NCBI RefSeq assembly: GCF_011758645.1 | Contig: NZ_JAAMOZ010000001.1 | Location: 2,232,001-2,296,000, forward strand | Origin: Brooklawnia cerclae | Lineage (GTDB): Bacteria > Actinomycetota > Actinomycetes > Propionibacteriales > Propionibacteriaceae | Reading direction: 5' to 3' | Length of the DNA: 64,000 nucleotides | Part shown: positions 1 through 10,690 of the stretch, piece after piece | Layout: each line of letters opens with the position of its first letter | Position numbering within the stretch: position 1 is the stretch's first letter | Notes under the pieces: model-generated | Databases searched by the model: none | What the model saw: the letters and a program-made list of their open reading frames with translations, nothing else | What the model was told of the DNA's origin: nothing | Translations under genes and position numbers: made by a program

Positions 1-992
1 AAGGCGGGGGTGTCTGCGGGAGCCAGCCAGAGACGCTCCAACTCGTCGTCCAGGAACATGACCGACAGGGACGCACCCGCCATGTCGAGCGACGTCACCT
101 GCTCGCCGACGACCGGGTGGACGATCGTCAGTCCACGCCGTTCCAGGAGTTCGGCGACCGAACCGAACAGTACGAACAACTCCTCGTACTTCGTGGCCCC
201 CAGGCCGTTCACGAGCACGGCGACACGTCCCCGGTAGCCGTCCTCGGTACGGTCGGGTTCCTCCGCCAGCACTCGGTCGACGAGCAGGGACGCGATGTCC
301 GCAGCGGTGGCCATGGGATGCAAGGAGATACCGGGCTCGCCATGGATGCCGAGCCCCAGGGCGAACTGCCCAGCCGGCACCGTGAACAGCGGCTCGTCCG
401 CCCCCGGCAGCGTGCACCCGGTGAAGGCGACGCCCAGCGACCGGGTCAGGCCACCGGCTCGGCGGGCCACCCGCTCGACATCGTCGATCCGCAAGCCCGC
501 CTCCGCGGCCGCGCCGGCAACCTTCACGACGAGCAGGTCGCCCGCGATGCCGCGCCGGTCGCCGTGGTGATCAGGAGTGTTGGACGCGACGTCGTCCGAG
601 ATCGTGACGACACGCACATCGAGGCCATCAGCCCCGAGCGACGACGCCGCCTCGCCGAAATGAAGACAGTCACCCGCGTAGTTGCCGAAGAGGAGCAGGG
701 TGCCTCCCCCGTTGTCCGCCGCTCGTACCACGGACTCGACCTGCGAGGCCGAGGGGGATGCGAAGACGTTCCCGCATACCGCGCCATGGGCCATGCCGGG
801 ACCGACCCAGCCGGGAAACGCCGGATAGTGCCCGGAGCCACCGCCGACGACCACCGACACCTGCCCGTCCGGGCTCGTCGTCGCCCGCACGATGCCACCG
901 TGCACGGGCGCGACATGGTCGCCGAACGCCGCGACCATTCCCCTGACGGCATCGGCCGCGAATTCCTTGGGATCGTTCACCAGGTACGTCAT
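1..992 (-). CDS. DhaK-family ketose kinase (C-terminus beyond window edge)
   Basis: About 330 residues are present; the 3' end lies outside the window. This is a dihydroxyacetone-kinase DhaK domain: GGGSGHYPAFPG (50-61) is the substrate-binding loop, and IHGEPG carries H217, the residue that in this family forms a covalent hemiaminal with the ketose. ATP-dependent single-chain enzymes carry a DhaL domain after DhaK; whether one follows cannot be seen. The ATG is preceded by GGAG at 8 nt. It sits 133 nt downstream of the ApnO-like gene in the same direction. In the known apionate route through OiaC the product is L-erythrulose, phosphorylated by a DhaK-family kinase (LerK). I infer that role from context; a plain dihydroxyacetone or other tetrulose kinase remains possible. 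Confidence 0.85.
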   Translation of the reverse strand, partial: MTYLVNDPKEFAADAVRGMVAAFGDHVAPVHGGIVRATTSPDGQVSVVVGGGSGHYPAFPGWVGPGMAHGAVCGNVFASPSASQVESVVRAADNGGGTLLLFGNYAGDCLHFGEAASSLGADGLDVRVVTISDDVASNTPDHHGDRRGIAGDLLVVKVAGAAAEAGLRIDDVERVARRAGGLTRSLGVAFTGCTLPGADEPLFTVPAGQFALGLGIHGEPGISLHPMATAADIASLLVDRVLAEEPDRTEDGYRGRVAVLVNGLGATKYEELFVLFGSVAELLERRGLTIVHPVVGEQVTSLDMAGASLSVMFLDDELERLWLAPADTPA

Positions 993-1980: not shown

Positions 1981-2791
1981 TGTCGATCCTCTCCTTGATG
2001 TACTCGATGGCACTCTTCGTCCACCGTTTTTCCGTGTCGACGGTTGTCGTGATGTCTCCCTGCCAACCGAGCCAGTGCTCGACCACCTGGCTGATGCCCC
2101 TCTGCACGGGGCGCACCATGGCCGCTTCGAACGCGTAGTCGAGCAGTCCGGTACCCATCGGGGCACCCGCGTAGGTGAATCCCACCCAGCCGTCCTTGCG
2201 GGAGAACCCGAAATCCTTGACATGGAGGTTGAGGGTGATCGGCGCGCATCGGCGGATCACGTCGATGGGGTCTTCCAGACGGGCGACCGAGTTGGCCGGG
2301 TCAAGCGCGACCCCGATCCTCGGGCTGGCGAGCGCGTGCACCAACCCGACCAGGTCGATCACCGCGAGTTGCTCATAGGTCTCCAGGGCGATGCTCACCC
2401 CGCGCGACTCCAGTTCCGAAGCGAGCGAGCCGAGTGCGGCAAGCGCTCTCCCCGTGGGATGCGACCCGGCGTCCGGGATGACCATCGAGCGCAGCATGTG
2501 TGCGTCGAGCGCCTCACACAGATCGAGATACGCACGAAGGTGCTCGACCTCAACCCCTCGGGTGCCCAACTCGATCTCGACGCCCAGGTCGGCGGCCTGC
2601 CTGCGCAACCCGGCCAGTTCCCGGGCCTCCAGGTGCTCGATGGGCCGGTAGTCGCAGATCTGGAGCACGTTGCACCCGAGTTCGGCGGCCCGATCGAGCA
2701 TCCCGCCAGGCCCGATGGGTTCGGGATTGCGTTCCGAGCACTCCCAGAAGAGCGCGTAAGTGCTGATGCCGATCCGCGGTGCGACGCTCAT
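1973..2791 (-). CDS. oiaC: 3-oxo-isoapionate decarboxylase-like TIM barrel (sugar phosphate isomerase/epimerase fold)
   Basis: A 272-residue xylose-isomerase-like TIM barrel. Likely metal ligands are E137 (ALETYE), D164 (ALDPANS), H190 (LNLHVKDF) and E238 (VVEHW), the usual set for this fold. OiaC, which decarboxylates 3-oxo-isoapionate to L-erythrulose, is a member of this family and travels with apnO and a DhaK-type kinase. The ATG overlaps the stop of the upstream MFS gene as ATGA, and its own end overlaps apnO, so the three genes form one coupled operon. The fold is clear; the exact substrate is inferred from neighbours. Hydroxypyruvate isomerase-like or inosose-type activity would be the alternative. 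Confidence 0.7.
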   Translation of the reverse strand: MSVAPRIGISTYALFWECSERNPEPIGPGGMLDRAAELGCNVLQICDYRPIEHLEARELAGLRRQAADLGVEIELGTRGVEVEHLRAYLDLCEALDAHMLRSMVIPDAGSHPTGRALAALGSLASELESRGVSIALETYEQLAVIDLVGLVHALASPRIGVALDPANSVARLEDPIDVIRRCAPITLNLHVKDFGFSRKDGWVGFTYAGAPMGTGLLDYAFEAAMVRPVQRGISQVVEHWLGWQGDITTTVDTEKRWTKSAIEYIKERIDND

Positions 2792-4155
2792 GCGATGGCC
2801 ACCTCGTCCGCCGAGTCGGTGGTCGTGCCCTTTCGCCCGCCGCGCCGGGCGTCCACGCCCCTGAGACTGACCAGGATCAGGCCCGATATCGCCATGACTC
2901 CCCCGACGACGAACATCGGCACGATGTACCCGCCGGTCAGATCCTTGAGCCAACCCGTGATGTACCCGGCGGAGAACCCTGCGATGTTGCCCACGGTGTT
3001 GATGAGCGCGGTGCCAGCCGCCGCGGCGGCACCGGTCAGGAACTGGGTCGGCAAGGTCCAGAAGTTCGGGAGCACCGCGAAGATCGAGCACGCCGTCAGC
3101 GCGACGAAGACCATTGTCACCAAGGGGTTCCCCTGGACGAACAGGGCTGTGGGAATCGACACGGCCCCGACGAAGGCCGGGAGCACGATGTGCCACACCT
3201 TGAGTCCGTCCTTCTGGACCTTGCGCGACCACAGATAGAGGACGACCGCGGCGACGACGTAGGGCGCACCGGTGATCAGCCCCTCCTGAGTGGCCGACAG
3301 ATCACCCAGCTGCTCCCGGAACCCGTTGACGATGGTGGGAAGGAAGAAGCTCAACGCGTACAACCCGTAGATGAAACCGAAGTAGACGAACGACAGCGCC
3401 CACACGCGCCCGTTCCGGAAGGTCTCGGCGAGCCCGACCTTGTGCACCGCCTCTGTCTGGGCAGCCTCCCGGGCCAACTCGCTGGTCAACCAGCCCTGCT
3501 CCTCGGAGGTCAGCCAGTGGGCCTCACCCGGGTGATCCTTAAGGATGACGAGCGCCAGGATGCCGACGACGATCGCCGGAAGGCCGACGCCGAGGAACAT
3601 GACCCGCCACCCGTCGAGGCCGAAGAGGCCGTGCAACTGGATCAGCAAACCCGCCAGGGGCGCTCCGATGGCAGTGGTCAGCGGCTGCGCGATGTAGAAG
3701 AGCCCGAGGATCTTCGCCCTGTGACGCGCGGGAACCCACATCGACAAGAACAAGATCGCACCAGGGAAGAACCCGGCCTCCATGACGCCCAGGAGGAAAC
3801 GCAACCAGTACAACTGCACCGCGCTTTGAACCCACGTGAAGAGCACGGCCACGATTCCCCAGGTGACCATGATGCGGGCCAACCACTTGCGGGCCCCGAA
3901 CTTGTGCAGGGCGAGGTTGGAGGGGATCTCCAAGATGATGTAACCGATGAAGAACACCCCGGATGCGAACCCGAACTGCGCAGCGGACAGCCCCAGATCG
4001 TCTCTCAGCCCATGGGGTGCCGCGAACGAGATCGCCGTTCGGTCGAGGAAGTTGATGAAGAACATCAGTGCCACGAAGGGCACAAGGCGGCGCGAGACCT
4101 TTCCGATCGCCGATCTCTCAACATCCGATCTCGGCTCCTTGACGCCAGAATCCAC
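2788..4155 (-). CDS. MFS transporter, anion:cation symporter type (probable sugar-acid uptake)
   Basis: A 455-residue protein with about twelve hydrophobic segments. The N-terminal stretch FFINFLDRTAISFAAP (about 33-48) and later FLLGVMEAGFFPGAI are typical of the anion:cation symporter family of the major facilitator superfamily, which imports hexonates, tartrate and other sugar acids with protons. The GTG start is chosen because GAGGAG lies 5 nt upstream. First gene of the operon that continues with the decarboxylase-, oxidoisomerase- and kinase-like genes. Its promoter overlaps a palindrome shared with the second transporter. An acid substrate such as apionate fits both family and context; the substrate is inferred. 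Confidence 0.85.
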   Translation of the reverse strand: MDSGVKEPRSDVERSAIGKVSRRLVPFVALMFFINFLDRTAISFAAPHGLRDDLGLSAAQFGFASGVFFIGYIILEIPSNLALHKFGARKWLARIMVTWGIVAVLFTWVQSAVQLYWLRFLLGVMEAGFFPGAILFLSMWVPARHRAKILGLFYIAQPLTTAIGAPLAGLLIQLHGLFGLDGWRVMFLGVGLPAIVVGILALVILKDHPGEAHWLTSEEQGWLTSELAREAAQTEAVHKVGLAETFRNGRVWALSFVYFGFIYGLYALSFFLPTIVNGFREQLGDLSATQEGLITGAPYVVAAVVLYLWSRKVQKDGLKVWHIVLPAFVGAVSIPTALFVQGNPLVTMVFVALTACSIFAVLPNFWTLPTQFLTGAAAAAGTALINTVGNIAGFSAGYITGWLKDLTGGYIVPMFVVGGVMAISGLILVSLRGVDARRGGRKGTTTDSADEVAIA

Positions 4156-4239
4156 GTTGACTCCTCAAAACTGCAGGTGTGATGCCCCGTCTCATCGACG
4201 AGCGGGACGGCTGACGGACCTCAATGCCCGACGCGAACC

Positions 4240-4278
4240 AGTATGGTCACGTTTCCCAGATTGGTCAACCGGTTGACC
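4240..4278 (-). promoter_or_regulatory. Promoter and operator of the oiaC-apnO operon
   Basis: The perfect 16-bp palindrome GGTCAACCGGTTGACC occupies 4263-4278. Read on the minus strand its second half supplies a -35 box TTGACC (4268-4263), followed by a 17-bp spacer and a -10 box CATACT (4245-4240). The GTG of the MFS gene is 84 nt further on. The same palindrome with the same spacing recurs at 7654-7692. An operator covering the -35 box suggests repression, most simply by the FadR-type regulator encoded next door; each half reads GGTnnACC, close to the half-site style of that family. Confidence 0.75.
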
Positions 4279-4362
4279 GATAGTTGCGAGAGCGATCTCT
4301 CGAAATCGCGTGTCTGGCTTACTCCGGGGTTTACCTACCCATGACGCGATTCCCGTACAGCG

Positions 4363-6213
4363 CTACCCCATAGCTCCCTCGCCTTTCACGATGCGTACGC
4401 GACAAGCAGGAACGACAATCCCAGGGAACCGGAACCCCCCGACGACGATCTCAGGTACGTCGATCTCATCGCACCCCGGGTTTGTCAACAGGATCTCGCC
4501 CGTCCCATCGCGAGCGGCCACAACGCCGTAGGCTCCGGTCGGCAGAAACGCTCCTAACTCGTGGATCGTCCCTCTTCGATGCCCCAGGAACCATTCGATT
4601 GCCTCACCACAGGCAGACAAATGGCCATCGGGCTCGCGGATTCCCCTCGGCCCTGAGCTCTCGTACAGGCAGACCTCCGCTACTTCCGACCCAATGAGCT
4701 GAGCGAGGCACGCTGCAGTCCAGGCACCCGCGAACGGAGTTCCCTGGCGAGCATCCGTGCTCTCCGACACATACTCCGGCCCGAAGCCAGCGAGATCAGA
4801 TGGGCCGGGTCCACCCTCGCGAGTCGCGACCGCGTTCAACCTCGGACGCAGGGTGATCGGGCCGATCAACAGGGGACGCCCTTCCACCAGTTCGCGAGCA
4901 CTTGCGATCACTCCCGGTATCGCGTCGACGACCTCCCGAATATGCCTCTGCTCCTGTACGTGCATCTGGGGGCTCAGAGAGAAGCAATACCCGTCGGCAT
5001 CAGAGGGAAATCTATGCACGTTCCTGTTGAACTCCGCGAAGTGCCCGCATGTGCCCGCCACGAGTTCCGCTCCAAAACTTCGGTTGAGCCGCACCAGGGA
5101 TCGCCACACGTCGCTCTCAGTCACCAAAGTCGAGGCGTCGAAAGCCGCCAACCGGGCGATCCGCAAGTCCGTCTGCCCGAAGAAGTCGAGAACGCTTTCG
5201 AGCCCGGCCTCGGAGCCAGCCCGCACCCGCAGGTCCAGCGGGATTCCAGCACCTCTCGTCTCCCGGCGCGCTTGCTCCGCGATGCGGCCAAGCGGGTCCC
5301 GGTCGGTGACCTCCAACACGAGGGCATCCGGAACCTCACAGCCGAGGTCGGCCGAAGGCGGGGAGTCCAGGAATCGTGTACTCGCTCCTAGATCGAAAGT
5401 CGGCAGTCCTCCCCTACCCCCATCCACGGACCTCCAAGAGCGCGGTGAGGCGGCCGATATCCGACGCCCTTCGCTCTGTGGGGCATGCCTCGCACGCGCC
5501 ACGACAGATTGGGAGATCACCGCATCTTTCCGGAGCATGTACGGGAAGGGCAGACCCAAGGGGCGGTTGTAGACCTTGAAGGAGAAATCGCACCAATTGC
5601 GCTGATCTTCCATTTCGAAGGTGTCGCCCGCGAAGTCCACCTCAACGTCCACTCCGTCACGTGTCCATCGCAACCCTTTGATACCTAGACACGGTTGATA
5701 GGGCGAGACCTGGACAGGAAGACGAAGCGGGTGCGAATAGCCGTCGACGGTATCCACCGTCAGATCGGATCCCGCCAAGGTTCCCGGCAACAGAGCCACG
5801 AGGCCAGCGCGGTTCACCGCCGAATCCCGCAATGCGCGCAGGCGGAGACCAACGGACGCCCCCTGGTTTTCGATCGCAAAGCGGATCTCGGCCGTCAGAT
5901 CAGCATCGTCACTCGTGAGACGCTCGACGACGGTTACCGACAGACCGTCGTCGGTCCACACCTGATCTTCAGTCTCGACGACACCGCGCAATGTGTACCA
6001 ATCCGGGTCGCGCACGGCCAGACGCACCCCGTCCAGCACCCGGCTGCCATCGAACTCGATGCCGAACAACTCGCGATCGGCCAGCTTGGCAGACCATGGC
6101 CCCCACGCCAAGGGACCGTCGTCCGTCCTTGCACCCGTCGAGGCTCCAGATGCTCCGCCGGAATCAATCGCGCCTTCTTGCCCGATCTGACGTGTCACCC
6201 CAACCGAATTCAT
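4363..6213 (-). CDS. apnL: D-apionate lactonase-like protein
   Basis: A 616-residue protein without signal peptide. The N-terminal third is beta-rich; GDTFEMEDQRNW (196-207), followed by a W/C/D-rich stretch to about 225, is the block I associate with D-apionate lactonases (ApnL). The C-terminal half looks like a TIM-barrel/glycoside-hydrolase-like fold. ApnL hydrolyses D-apionolactone to D-apionate, upstream of ApnO. The ATG lies just after the stop of the upstream MFS gene, with GAGGAG 13 nt before it, so the two are co-transcribed. Without the neighbours I would call it a hypothetical glycosidase-like protein; the pathway context raises confidence. No sugar dehydrogenase to make the lactone is in the window. 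Confidence 0.68.
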   Translation of the reverse strand: MNSVGVTRQIGQEGAIDSGGASGASTGARTDDGPLAWGPWSAKLADRELFGIEFDGSRVLDGVRLAVRDPDWYTLRGVVETEDQVWTDDGLSVTVVERLTSDDADLTAEIRFAIENQGASVGLRLRALRDSAVNRAGLVALLPGTLAGSDLTVDTVDGYSHPLRLPVQVSPYQPCLGIKGLRWTRDGVDVEVDFAGDTFEMEDQRNWCDFSFKVYNRPLGLPFPYMLRKDAVISQSVVARARHAPQSEGRRISAASPRSWRSVDGGRGGLPTFDLGASTRFLDSPPSADLGCEVPDALVLEVTDRDPLGRIAEQARRETRGAGIPLDLRVRAGSEAGLESVLDFFGQTDLRIARLAAFDASTLVTESDVWRSLVRLNRSFGAELVAGTCGHFAEFNRNVHRFPSDADGYCFSLSPQMHVQEQRHIREVVDAIPGVIASARELVEGRPLLIGPITLRPRLNAVATREGGPGPSDLAGFGPEYVSESTDARQGTPFAGAWTAACLAQLIGSEVAEVCLYESSGPRGIREPDGHLSACGEAIEWFLGHRRGTIHELGAFLPTGAYGVVAARDGTGEILLTNPGCDEIDVPEIVVGGFRFPGIVVPACRVRIVKGEGAMG

Positions 6214-6214
6214 G

Positions 6215-7579
6215 TCAGGCAGCTATCTCCTCGAGTTCCATCCCGGGCTCCACTCTGGGGAGGAAGAACGTCGACGCAGCCTGAGCCGCCCCCAACCCGA
6301 CAGCGATCACGAGCCACGTCGTCTCAAGGCTGACTACCGCGGTCAGACATGCCCAGATCAGGCTACCGAGCATGAACCCACCGACCAGCATGGCGCTCAT
6401 CCAACCAACCCCGAGTGCTCGCACGCGCGTTGGGTAAACCTCCGCCTGGTAGGTGTAGCCGACCCCCGACCATGTACCGTTCGTCGCCTGGTACAGCAAG
6501 AAAATAGCCACCAGCAGCACACTGTCGCTTCCGCTGAGAAGGATCAACAACGCCAACGGAGGAATACACACAGCTGAGCCGATCAGCACGTTCCGACGGC
6601 CGTACTTCTCACCGAGCAACCCACCCACGATGTAGAAGAGGACGCCCGCCGCTCCGCCCACGAGCAGCAGCGACGCCACCCGCGCCGACGACCAGCCCTT
6701 GACCTCGGTCATCCAGTAGGCCAGATAGATGTTCGTGGCGACGTAGGACATCCCATAGAGCAGCCACGTGACAGACATCGTCACTGCCGTGCGCTTCACA
6801 CCGCCCTCCTTGTCGAAGAGCTGGTAGAACTTGCCTTTGGCCAGTTCCTCGACATTGACGTTCCGCTCGCCCTGAAGCCGGGTCACCGTTTCCTCGTCGC
6901 CGCTCGCTAGGGCCTCTCGTAGCGCCTTCATGTGCAGGAACCTCGGGGACTCCCGAACCTTGCCGCGGGCGACAGCCACCAGGATCAACGGCAATACACC
7001 GAACAGGAAGACCGATCTCCACCCAAGGCCGGAGACGAGAAGGTACATGCCCGAGGCCATGAAGACACCGACCGTGTAGCCCGACTGGACGATGGAGTAA
7101 AGCATGCCGCGCCGTTTGGCCGGCACTTCTTCGTTCACGAGGGTCACTGAGACGGCCAACTCAGCGTTCGCAAAGCCGGATGCGATCGATCGGACCAGGA
7201 CCAGCGTCCAGAATCCCTGCACGAAGAAGGTAAGACCGGTGAAGATGCCTGCGATGATGAGGCAGAACATCCAGGCATACTTGCGTCCGCGCCTGTCCAT
7301 GACGTGCCCCATGTAGAGCGCGATCAAGAACTCGGCGGCATACACGAACATCCCCATCACCCCGAGCATCGAGGAAGAGATGCTCAGATCCGCCGTGATG
7401 TCGGCGATCGTGAGGTTGAACAGGTTCGTGTCGTACGCCGCGAGAGCCCAGCCGAAGAGCGCGACGATGATGAGATAGATGATGTAGTGCCGTTCTTGTT
7501 TTTCCTCGGAGTTGCCCGAGTCCTGCCCCTCGTCGGCAGCCAGAGCCGCTGCCCGGGAGATTCCTGCCTGCGAATCCAC
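6215..7579 (-). CDS. MFS transporter, sugar-porter-like
   Basis: A 454-residue twelve-helix protein with a cytoplasmic N-terminus rich in charged residues. GHVMDRRGRKYAWM after helix 2 is the conserved MFS loop motif, and a polar cytoplasmic loop of about 60 residues separates the two halves. The GTG start at 7579 is preferred to an upstream ATG because AAGGGG lies 5 nt before it and the start context (tcaacGTGGATTC) is the same as for the other MFS gene. Followed directly by the lactonase-like gene. It belongs to a different MFS branch from the transporter at 2788-4155, so the cluster may import two substrates, such as the free sugar or lactone and the acid. Confidence 0.85.
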   Translation of the reverse strand: MDSQAGISRAAALAADEGQDSGNSEEKQERHYIIYLIIVALFGWALAAYDTNLFNLTIADITADLSISSSMLGVMGMFVYAAEFLIALYMGHVMDRRGRKYAWMFCLIIAGIFTGLTFFVQGFWTLVLVRSIASGFANAELAVSVTLVNEEVPAKRRGMLYSIVQSGYTVGVFMASGMYLLVSGLGWRSVFLFGVLPLILVAVARGKVRESPRFLHMKALREALASGDEETVTRLQGERNVNVEELAKGKFYQLFDKEGGVKRTAVTMSVTWLLYGMSYVATNIYLAYWMTEVKGWSSARVASLLLVGGAAGVLFYIVGGLLGEKYGRRNVLIGSAVCIPPLALLILLSGSDSVLLVAIFLLYQATNGTWSGVGYTYQAEVYPTRVRALGVGWMSAMLVGGFMLGSLIWACLTAVVSLETTWLVIAVGLGAAQAASTFFLPRVEPGMELEEIAA

Positions 7580-7653
7580 GTTGACCCCTTTCGAGCAATC
7601 AGGACACCGCTGCGACCTCGCAGCCCCCATGTCCAAGCACCGTTGCGTGTGTC

Positions 7654-7692
7654 AGCGTAGAACGATCGTTCAGAGTGGTCAACCGGTTGACC
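7654..7692 (-). promoter_or_regulatory. Promoter and operator of the MFS-apnL operon
   Basis: The palindrome GGTCAACCGGTTGACC (7677-7692) is identical to the one at 4263-4278. On the minus strand it gives -35 TTGACC, a 17-bp spacer, and a -10 box TACGCT (7659-7654), 74 nt before the GTG of the transporter. It lies between that gene and the end of the FadR-type regulator, as expected for a local operator. Confidence 0.75.
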
Positions 7693-7765
7693 TGTATTTG
7701 TGGCGACAGGCTCTCCCCAGTGACTGTGTTCAGTTGAGTTGCTGTCGGTTGTGGCTATGGGACTA

Positions 7766-8569
7766 TCAGGCAGACGCACCGCGCCGAGACGGTTCCGCTT
7801 CTTCCCGGGTTTCCGCGAGACTCGCCTCCGTGAACTGGGCGAGCCGCTCAGCTGCCGTCCGCATGTGCTCGGCCATTGCCTTCGCGGCCCCATCCGGATC
7901 GGCTGCCCGAATCGCACGCAGCACTGCCGCGTGCTCCTCCTGCGCGGTCTGCATCTCGGTGACCGTCCGCACCTGCCGTTCGATCCACACACGGAGCAGC
8001 GCCCTGACCGTGGAGCCGAGGTACGACAGGATCGTGTTGTCGGCAAGTCGGCTGAGTTCGATGTGGAAGCGCTGGTCGGCAGACACGTAGGCGTCGACGT
8101 CCCCACTCACGACAGCTGCTGCCTGATCGTCGACCGTCTCACTCAGGGCGGTCAGGTCGGGGGCCGGGTCAAGGCCAGCGACGATGGTCGCGCACTTCAC
8201 CTCGAGCGCGTCGCGCACGTCGAACAGTTCACCCAGTGAGTCCCGCTCGAGCAGCAACCCCCAGGCGAGCGTCCGGGGCAGCACCTCGGAGGTCGGCGAA
8301 CGAACGTACGTACCTGATCCGGGGAGCACCTCGACGACACCGAGGATCTCGAGGGTCGCGAGCGCCTCTCGCACAGCGGAACGTCCCACATTGAGTGTCT
8401 CCGCGAGCTGGCGCTCCGATGGCAGCCGTTCCCCCACCCCGAGCTGACCCGAGGAGATCGCTGCGAGCACCATCTGTGCGGTCCGGGCCGATGGCGAGTT
8501 GCCGACGACAACGGAGCTGACATCCGGCAGCGCACCCTCGGCCTCGTCCCTCCAGGGCGACTCGCCCAT
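7766..8569 (-). CDS. GntR-family (FadR subfamily) transcriptional regulator
   Basis: About 267 residues. The N-terminal winged helix contains the classical block LPSERQLAETLNVGRS followed by REAL.TLE.LG and the wing GSGTYV; the rest is a helical FCD-type effector domain with several His/Asp residues (RFHIELSRLADN, later EEH and EH) of the kind that hold a metal and an organic acid. The ATG at 8569 has GAGG 9 nt upstream; a GTG at 8584 is an alternative start with no ribosome binding site. It is transcribed toward the catabolic genes and is the best candidate to bind the two identical palindromes. Effector unknown; an apionate-pathway acid is a reasonable guess. Confidence 0.88.
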   Translation of the reverse strand: MGESPWRDEAEGALPDVSSVVVGNSPSARTAQMVLAAISSGQLGVGERLPSERQLAETLNVGRSAVREALATLEILGVVEVLPGSGTYVRSPTSEVLPRTLAWGLLLERDSLGELFDVRDALEVKCATIVAGLDPAPDLTALSETVDDQAAAVVSGDVDAYVSADQRFHIELSRLADNTILSYLGSTVRALLRVWIERQVRTVTEMQTAQEEHAAVLRAIRAADPDGAAKAMAEHMRTAAERLAQFTEASLAETREEAEPSRRGASA

Positions 8570-8686
8570 GCCACCAATCCTCACGGGTCAATGGTACGAG
8601 CGCTTCGTCCGTAGTCGTTCGACCTGCCCCGCCGCGTCGCCACACCGAGGCACGCACGGATTGCCGCAGGTGCGTAAGGTTGGGAC

Positions 8687-10376: not shown

Positions 10377-10395
10377 GCCGAGGTGCGCCGCGCCG

Positions 10396-10690
10396 GTCCT
10401 CGAGCCTGTCGAAAGGACCACACCCCCGTTTCGACAGGCTCAACGGCCGGTCCTTGAGCCTGGCGGCGGGTCCTTGAGCCTGTCGAAAGGACCACACCCA
10501 CCGTTTCGACAAGCTCAACGGCCGGTCCTTGAGCCTGTCGGCGGGTCCTTGAGCCTGTCGAAAGGACCACACCCACCGTTTCGACAAGCTCAACGGCCGG
10601 TCCTCGAGCCTGTCGGCGGGTCCTTGAGCCTGTCGGCCGGTCCTTGAGCCTGTCGAAAGGACCACACCCACCGTTTCGACAGGCTCAACG
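10396..10690 (+). repeat. Cluster of about 12 TTGAGCCTGTCGAA-type repeats
   Basis: Between the convergent lipA and tsf, the 14-mer TTGAGCCTGTCGAA and its complement TTCGACAGGCTCAA (or the AAGCTC form) occur about twelve times, some ending in GTCGG instead of GTCGAA. Forward and inverted copies alternate around an AAGGACCACACCCACCG spacer, so each pair can fold into a hairpin. Related clusters occur at 34.2, 42.6, 45.6 and 51.8 kb. No gene is seen here. Confidence 0.9.

Follow-up and report, generated by a model that had tools for sequence, protein, structure and literature searches.

FadR/FCD-type GntR regulators of sugar-acid genes, such as UxuR, ExuR, DgoR, LldR and NanR, combine a GntR HTH with an FCD domain, adjoin or diverge from their target operons, and use single or double intergenic sites, palindromes in which TGGT/ACCA boxes are combined with a GT-N2-AC spacing (Suvorova et al. 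2015, PMC4494728). The published FadR-type sites have a GT-N2/3-AC centre, often with weaker extra boxes 7-12 nt from it (PMC4494728). Two further systems invite comparison. The (GGTATA)3 operator of E. coli NanR consists of direct repeats, to which three dimers bind by means of an N-terminal extension of 32 residues (PMC8012715), and the Atu1419/VanR-type FCD repressor acts on several identical palindromes (10-mer ATGTATACAT) that overlap promoter elements of its targets, lie 109-190 bp apart and are looped by a tetramer (PMC7797058).

Here we describe a locus with the same protein domains and a comparable arrangement of regulator, sites and target operons, located in a 64,000-nucleotide stretch of the Brooklawnia cerclae genome (the window). 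We consider it highly probable, from sequence comparison, that the FCD-type GntR regulator encoded next to them uses two identical palindromes in this locus as its operators and would thereby repress two operons for the predicted import and catabolism of D-apionate or its lactone, enzyme functions being assigned by distant homology. Unlike the sites catalogued in PMC4494728, these operators have two GT-N2-AC dyads around CCGG instead of one central GT-N2/3-AC. They resemble the NanR operator in having several GGT boxes in close register, but the boxes form an inverted repeat. As with Atu1419, identical palindromes overlap the promoter elements of the targets, although here they lie 3.4 kb apart and serve separate operons. 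We regard this as a clear new FadR/FCD regulon, with an operator of somewhat unusual build. It provides a predicted regulator-operator pair for a plant-sugar (apiose/apionate) pathway that had no regulator in the open-access literature searched, in which we found nothing relevant on an apionate regulator or on this motif.

Gene neighbourhood and the candidate regulator

On the minus strand, the gene for the proposed binder (7766-8584) is followed by operator O1 and promoter P1, MFS transporter 1 (6215-7579), an ApnL-like lactonase (4363-6213), operator O2 and promoter P2, MFS transporter 2 (2788-4155, assigned by profile matches), a xylose-isomerase-like TIM-barrel protein (1973-2791, PF01261), a KARI-like/PGDH_C NAD-dependent enzyme (1126-1980, PF16896 and PF07991; the dehydrogenase below) and a dihydroxyacetone-kinase-family kinase of 571 aa that runs off the window (1-992). 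MFS transporter 1 begins operon 1 and MFS transporter 2 begins operon 2. The lactonase is distantly related to the D-apionate lactonase ApnL (NCBIfam profile NF049900, E 4.3e-46); its 157.7 bits fall under the equivalog cut-off of 750, so that it is homologous and not certified as the same enzyme, and the substrate of the cluster is a prediction for this reason. We assume from pathway knowledge that the gene set corresponds to a route from D-apionolactone through D-apionate and 3-oxo-isoapionate to L-erythrulose, followed by phosphorylation. The KARI-like enzyme is a candidate ApnO-like D-apionate oxidoisomerase and the kinase a candidate L-erythrulose kinase, both by inferred role, while the TIM-barrel protein is, as we take it from pathway knowledge and linkage, a candidate OiaC-like 3-oxo-isoapionate decarboxylase. 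Since the lactonase is missing from the seven other genomes of the genus in the sample, the cluster is accessory.

The regulator has an N-terminal GntR winged HTH (PF00392, 68.4 bits against a cut-off of 27) and a C-terminal FCD effector domain (PF07729, 87.4 bits against 24.3), which places it in the FadR subfamily. Its best NCBIfam match is NanR (120.8 bits, under cut-off), and the solved structures nearest to it belong to FCD regulators, NanR (6on4) among them. Across 44 orthologues, HTH residues G59, R60, S61, A62, R64 and E65 are invariant, as are FCD residues R116, D162, H166, H210 and H232 (A2 numbering). Set against TM0439/HypR (PMC6608401), the latter five agree with the metal- and carboxylate-binding site typical of such domains, so that the effector could plausibly be a carboxylate, for instance apionate. 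An AlphaFold2 model of the regulator is of fair quality (pLDDT 80), and its top Foldseek matches are FCD GntR structures with whole-chain TM scores of just 0.34-0.52 by query length; because its domain arrangement superposes poorly on any whole chain, nothing here is built on the model.

The regulator gene precedes operon 1 and is transcribed with it in one direction, whereas in most relatives it is divergent. Unlike most relatives, too, it has no operator upstream in a motif-model scan, which makes direct autoregulation unlikely here. Apparent regulator-lactonase fusions in two other loci (885-aa ORFs, L052 and L053) were discarded as frame artefacts, being two genes in different frames.

Distribution of the palindrome across genomes

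The 16-mer GGTCAACCGGTTGACC, a perfect palindrome, occurs at 4263-4278 and 7677-7692. The earlier note had reported this pair, judged it improbable by chance and proposed a genome-wide search. That search of the 3.79-Mb genome returned two exact copies, both in the window, and no copy with one mismatch. The inner 12-mer AACCGGTTGACC is confined to the same two places, in support of the proposed local regulon of exactly two promoters. Nine places elsewhere in the genome have two mismatches, all scoring at most 16.7 on the motif model, compared with 35.6 for O2 and 30.2 for O1; the next best score within the window is 11.2. A single 16-bp perfect palindrome is unremarkable here (6 seen in the window vs 2.45 expected), and the improbability holds for the identical pair, which appeared in 0 of 100 simulated windows.

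The palindrome recurs with the regulator in other genomes. Seven same-family genomes that encode an orthologous regulator and pathway genes have it in the cluster with 0-2 mismatches, mostly directly adjoining the regulator gene. When the regulator alignment was used to scan species genomes, 80 loci in many genera were recovered. The palindrome is present with at most two mismatches in 69 of these (60 half-site-shuffled control palindromes: mean 1.0, max 14). These sites are mostly intergenic, between the regulator and a divergent catabolic operon, and palindrome and regulator gene stay together despite varied gene orders across many actinobacterial genera. The core AACCGGTT is missing from 15 of 124 regulator-upstream regions, and ten of those 15 loci carry the site elsewhere (L049, L050, L063, L080, L097, L119, L123, L132, L185 and L194). 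Among them, L063 is the closest relative of the cluster (regulator 61% and dehydrogenase 84% identical): it shares the window's order at the regulator-operator-MFS1-lactonase end, with the MFS1 orthologue behind the same operator, and its promoter reads TTGACC-N17-TAGCGT. The palindrome is missing from two related lactonase/dehydrogenase clusters, which may be controlled in a different way: L054 is without a regulator orthologue, and L055 has a diverged GntR. An exact 16-mer in a same-genus genome (L057) lies inside a long open reading frame and was taken as chance.

A second set, seeded by the enzyme, avoids selection by the regulator. As a phylum-wide dehydrogenase search gave few loci, we used 40 loci around dehydrogenase orthologues, 39 from Microbacteriaceae and one from another family. 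An FCD-GntR regulator orthologue is present in 37 of them and AACCGGTTGACC in 34 (300 shuffled 12-mers: mean 0.09, max 6). Across 300 Microbacteriaceae genomes, the 15-mer GTCAACCGGTTGACC gave 28 matches, 24 within 1.5 kb of the regulator, two beside MFS2 and two beside ApnL (the L221 match assigned via its overlap with L185), and no off-target match. The dehydrogenase occurs in 24 of the 26 genomes with a match and in 37 of the 274 without (Fisher p 8e-17, a value that overstates independence because species share ancestry). The suggestion that the FadR-type protein is the binder is thus supported by comparison (69/80 and 34/40 loci, and 28/28 matches at regulator or pathway genes), and the motif has the specificity needed for annotating the regulon in other actinobacteria.

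Promoter and operator architecture

Both promoters lie on the minus strand. In P1 (7654-7682) the -35 box TTGACC (7682-7677) lies inside O1 and is separated by a 17-bp spacer from the -10 box TACGCT (7659-7654), with a GTG start at 7579, 74 nt past the -10. In P2 (4240-4268) TTGACC (4268-4263) lies inside O2, the spacer is again 17 bp, the -10 box is CATACT (4245-4240) and the GTG start follows 84 nt past it at 4155. The earlier description of TTGACC as the palindrome's second half, with this spacing and these starts, is accurate for both copies. The geometry is kept in relatives: scoring the -10 pattern NANNNT at 81 non-redundant sites gave a spacer of 17 in 33 and of 18 in 19, against a background of about 2/81 for other spacer lengths. 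No comparable -10 enrichment was seen on the regulator strand of the 81 sites, the -10 box being on the catabolic strand only. We had considered that both halves might be -35 boxes of divergent promoters and dropped this for lack of that enrichment; just one palindrome half serves as a -35 box.

The operator itself extends beyond the 16-mer. From 83 non-redundant sites, chosen by the core AACCGGTT and oriented along the catabolic operon, we derived the consensus AATTGGTCAACCGGTTGAC(A/C)A(G/A)T, from which the full operator is a palindrome of about 24 bp, AATTGGTCAACC|GGTTGACCAATT. Its footprints correspond to 7673-7696 for O1, at the promoter of the MFS1-lactonase operon, and to 4259-4282 for O2, at the promoter of the MFS2-TIM-dehydrogenase-kinase operon. 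The core is invariant in all 83 sites, which is not independent evidence because the sites were selected for it; the flanks are independent. The upstream half is strict, and the promoter-side half drifts toward the -35 sequence TTGACA (A in 47 of 83). Unlike in the sites of PMC4494728, the halves are constrained differently because one of them is the -35 box; the 81 sites show a palindrome whose halves diverge since one must double as a promoter element.

TGGT and ACCA form the outer boxes of each operator and the GT-N2-AC spacing is present, but the true centre of symmetry is CCGG. Around this invariant CCGG, GT-N2-AC dyads lie at -4 (76 of 81 sites) and +4 (50 of 81) from the centre; compared with the published NyGTM-N0-1-KACNy motif with TKGT/ACMA boxes (PMC4494728), each dyad agrees at one M/K position only. 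The symmetric placement suggests, without proving, two dimers per operator. Several relatives have tandem operators with cores 22-28 bp apart, and the pairs at L052 8586-8623, L053 7780-7818, L064 9854-9891 and L066 9856-9895 come from several genera and are spaced 22-24 bp core-to-core, or about two helical turns. Extra 8-bp GGTCAACC-like units lie in register at the operators of L075 (1158-1181) and L121 (around 9907), as if such an 8-mer were the operator's building block. Tentatively, the 24-bp operator may be a doubled FadR-type site with dyads 8 bp apart, taken up cooperatively by two dimers in a NanR-like but inverted arrangement, one dyad being traded off against the embedded -35; the extra units and the operator pairs point the same way, though we regard this as a possibility on the doubtful side.

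The start contexts of the two transporter genes had also been noted to match. The match is real: GTCAACGTGGATTC is common to both MFS genes (7572-7586 and 4148-4162), after a Shine-Dalgarno-like stretch. The related GGAGTCAACGTG occurs at MFS genes of L063, L064, L073, L098 and L133 as well. As a ribosome-binding-site-plus-start context at several related transporter genes it is translational and says little about regulation. Separately, a second perfect palindrome, GAACGATCGTTC, lies at 7660-7671, at the end of the P1 spacer beside the -10 box. Neither P2 nor the promoter of L063 has it, and it may be bound by another regulator or be fortuitous.

Proposed control and alternative readings

The same palindrome stands at the same kinds of genes, beside the same regulator, in dozens of actinobacteria, so it is very probably the regulator's binding site. 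With no substrate present, one or more regulator dimers would sit on the 24-bp palindromes O1 and O2 and keep both operons off, excluding RNA polymerase from the -35 box embedded in the operator. A pathway carboxylate, apionate or 3-oxo-isoapionate, would release the regulator from the DNA; this ligand may sit at the conserved Asp/3-His metal site in the FCD domain. The additional site upstream of the divergent regulator gene in most relatives would allow autoregulation there.

Our first guess at the binder was a LacI-family regulator encoded elsewhere, as the CG-centred symmetric core AACCGGTT resembles LacI-type operators and differs from the single GT-N2/3-AC centre that FadR-type sites usually have, and 19 LacI-type genes in the genome score over cut-off. 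This guess was dropped after the gene-linkage test and is now quite improbable: of the 40 dehydrogenase-seeded loci only a minority have LacI genes nearby, in varying places, against 37 with the FCD-GntR orthologue; over the 300 genomes, every match of the 15-mer is at a locus that encodes this regulator or genes it would control; and two clusters that lack the regulator orthologue, L054 and L055, lack the motif too. A reading with no dedicated regulator, in which the palindrome was duplicated by chance or is just a recurring promoter element, is extremely improbable. Palindromes of 16 bp are indeed expected in a window of this size, and one half is a -35 box; yet both halves are conserved, and more strictly so the left one, which does not serve as a -35. 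No unrelated promoter in the genome has the palindrome, while it is conserved across genera.

Accepting the FCD-GntR protein as binder, we consider it unlikely that it activates these promoters, whether exclusively or in addition to repressing them, instead of being a simple repressor. FCD regulators such as CitO are cited in PMC6608401 as activating from sites upstream of -35, and the -35 and -10 boxes of the present promoters are imperfect. Here, by contrast, the operator covers the -35 hexamer itself, and its promoter-side half drifts to the better -35 TTGACA, which is what one would expect if the promoter needed no activator. Repression by the neighbouring regulator is the reading that we retain.

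Apart from the regulon, the window has a further repeat at 10395-10690, downstream of a lipA-like gene, where an inverted-repeat unit, tcgagcctgtcgaaaggaccacacc / gtttcgacaggctcaacgg, recurs as an intergenic repeat family.
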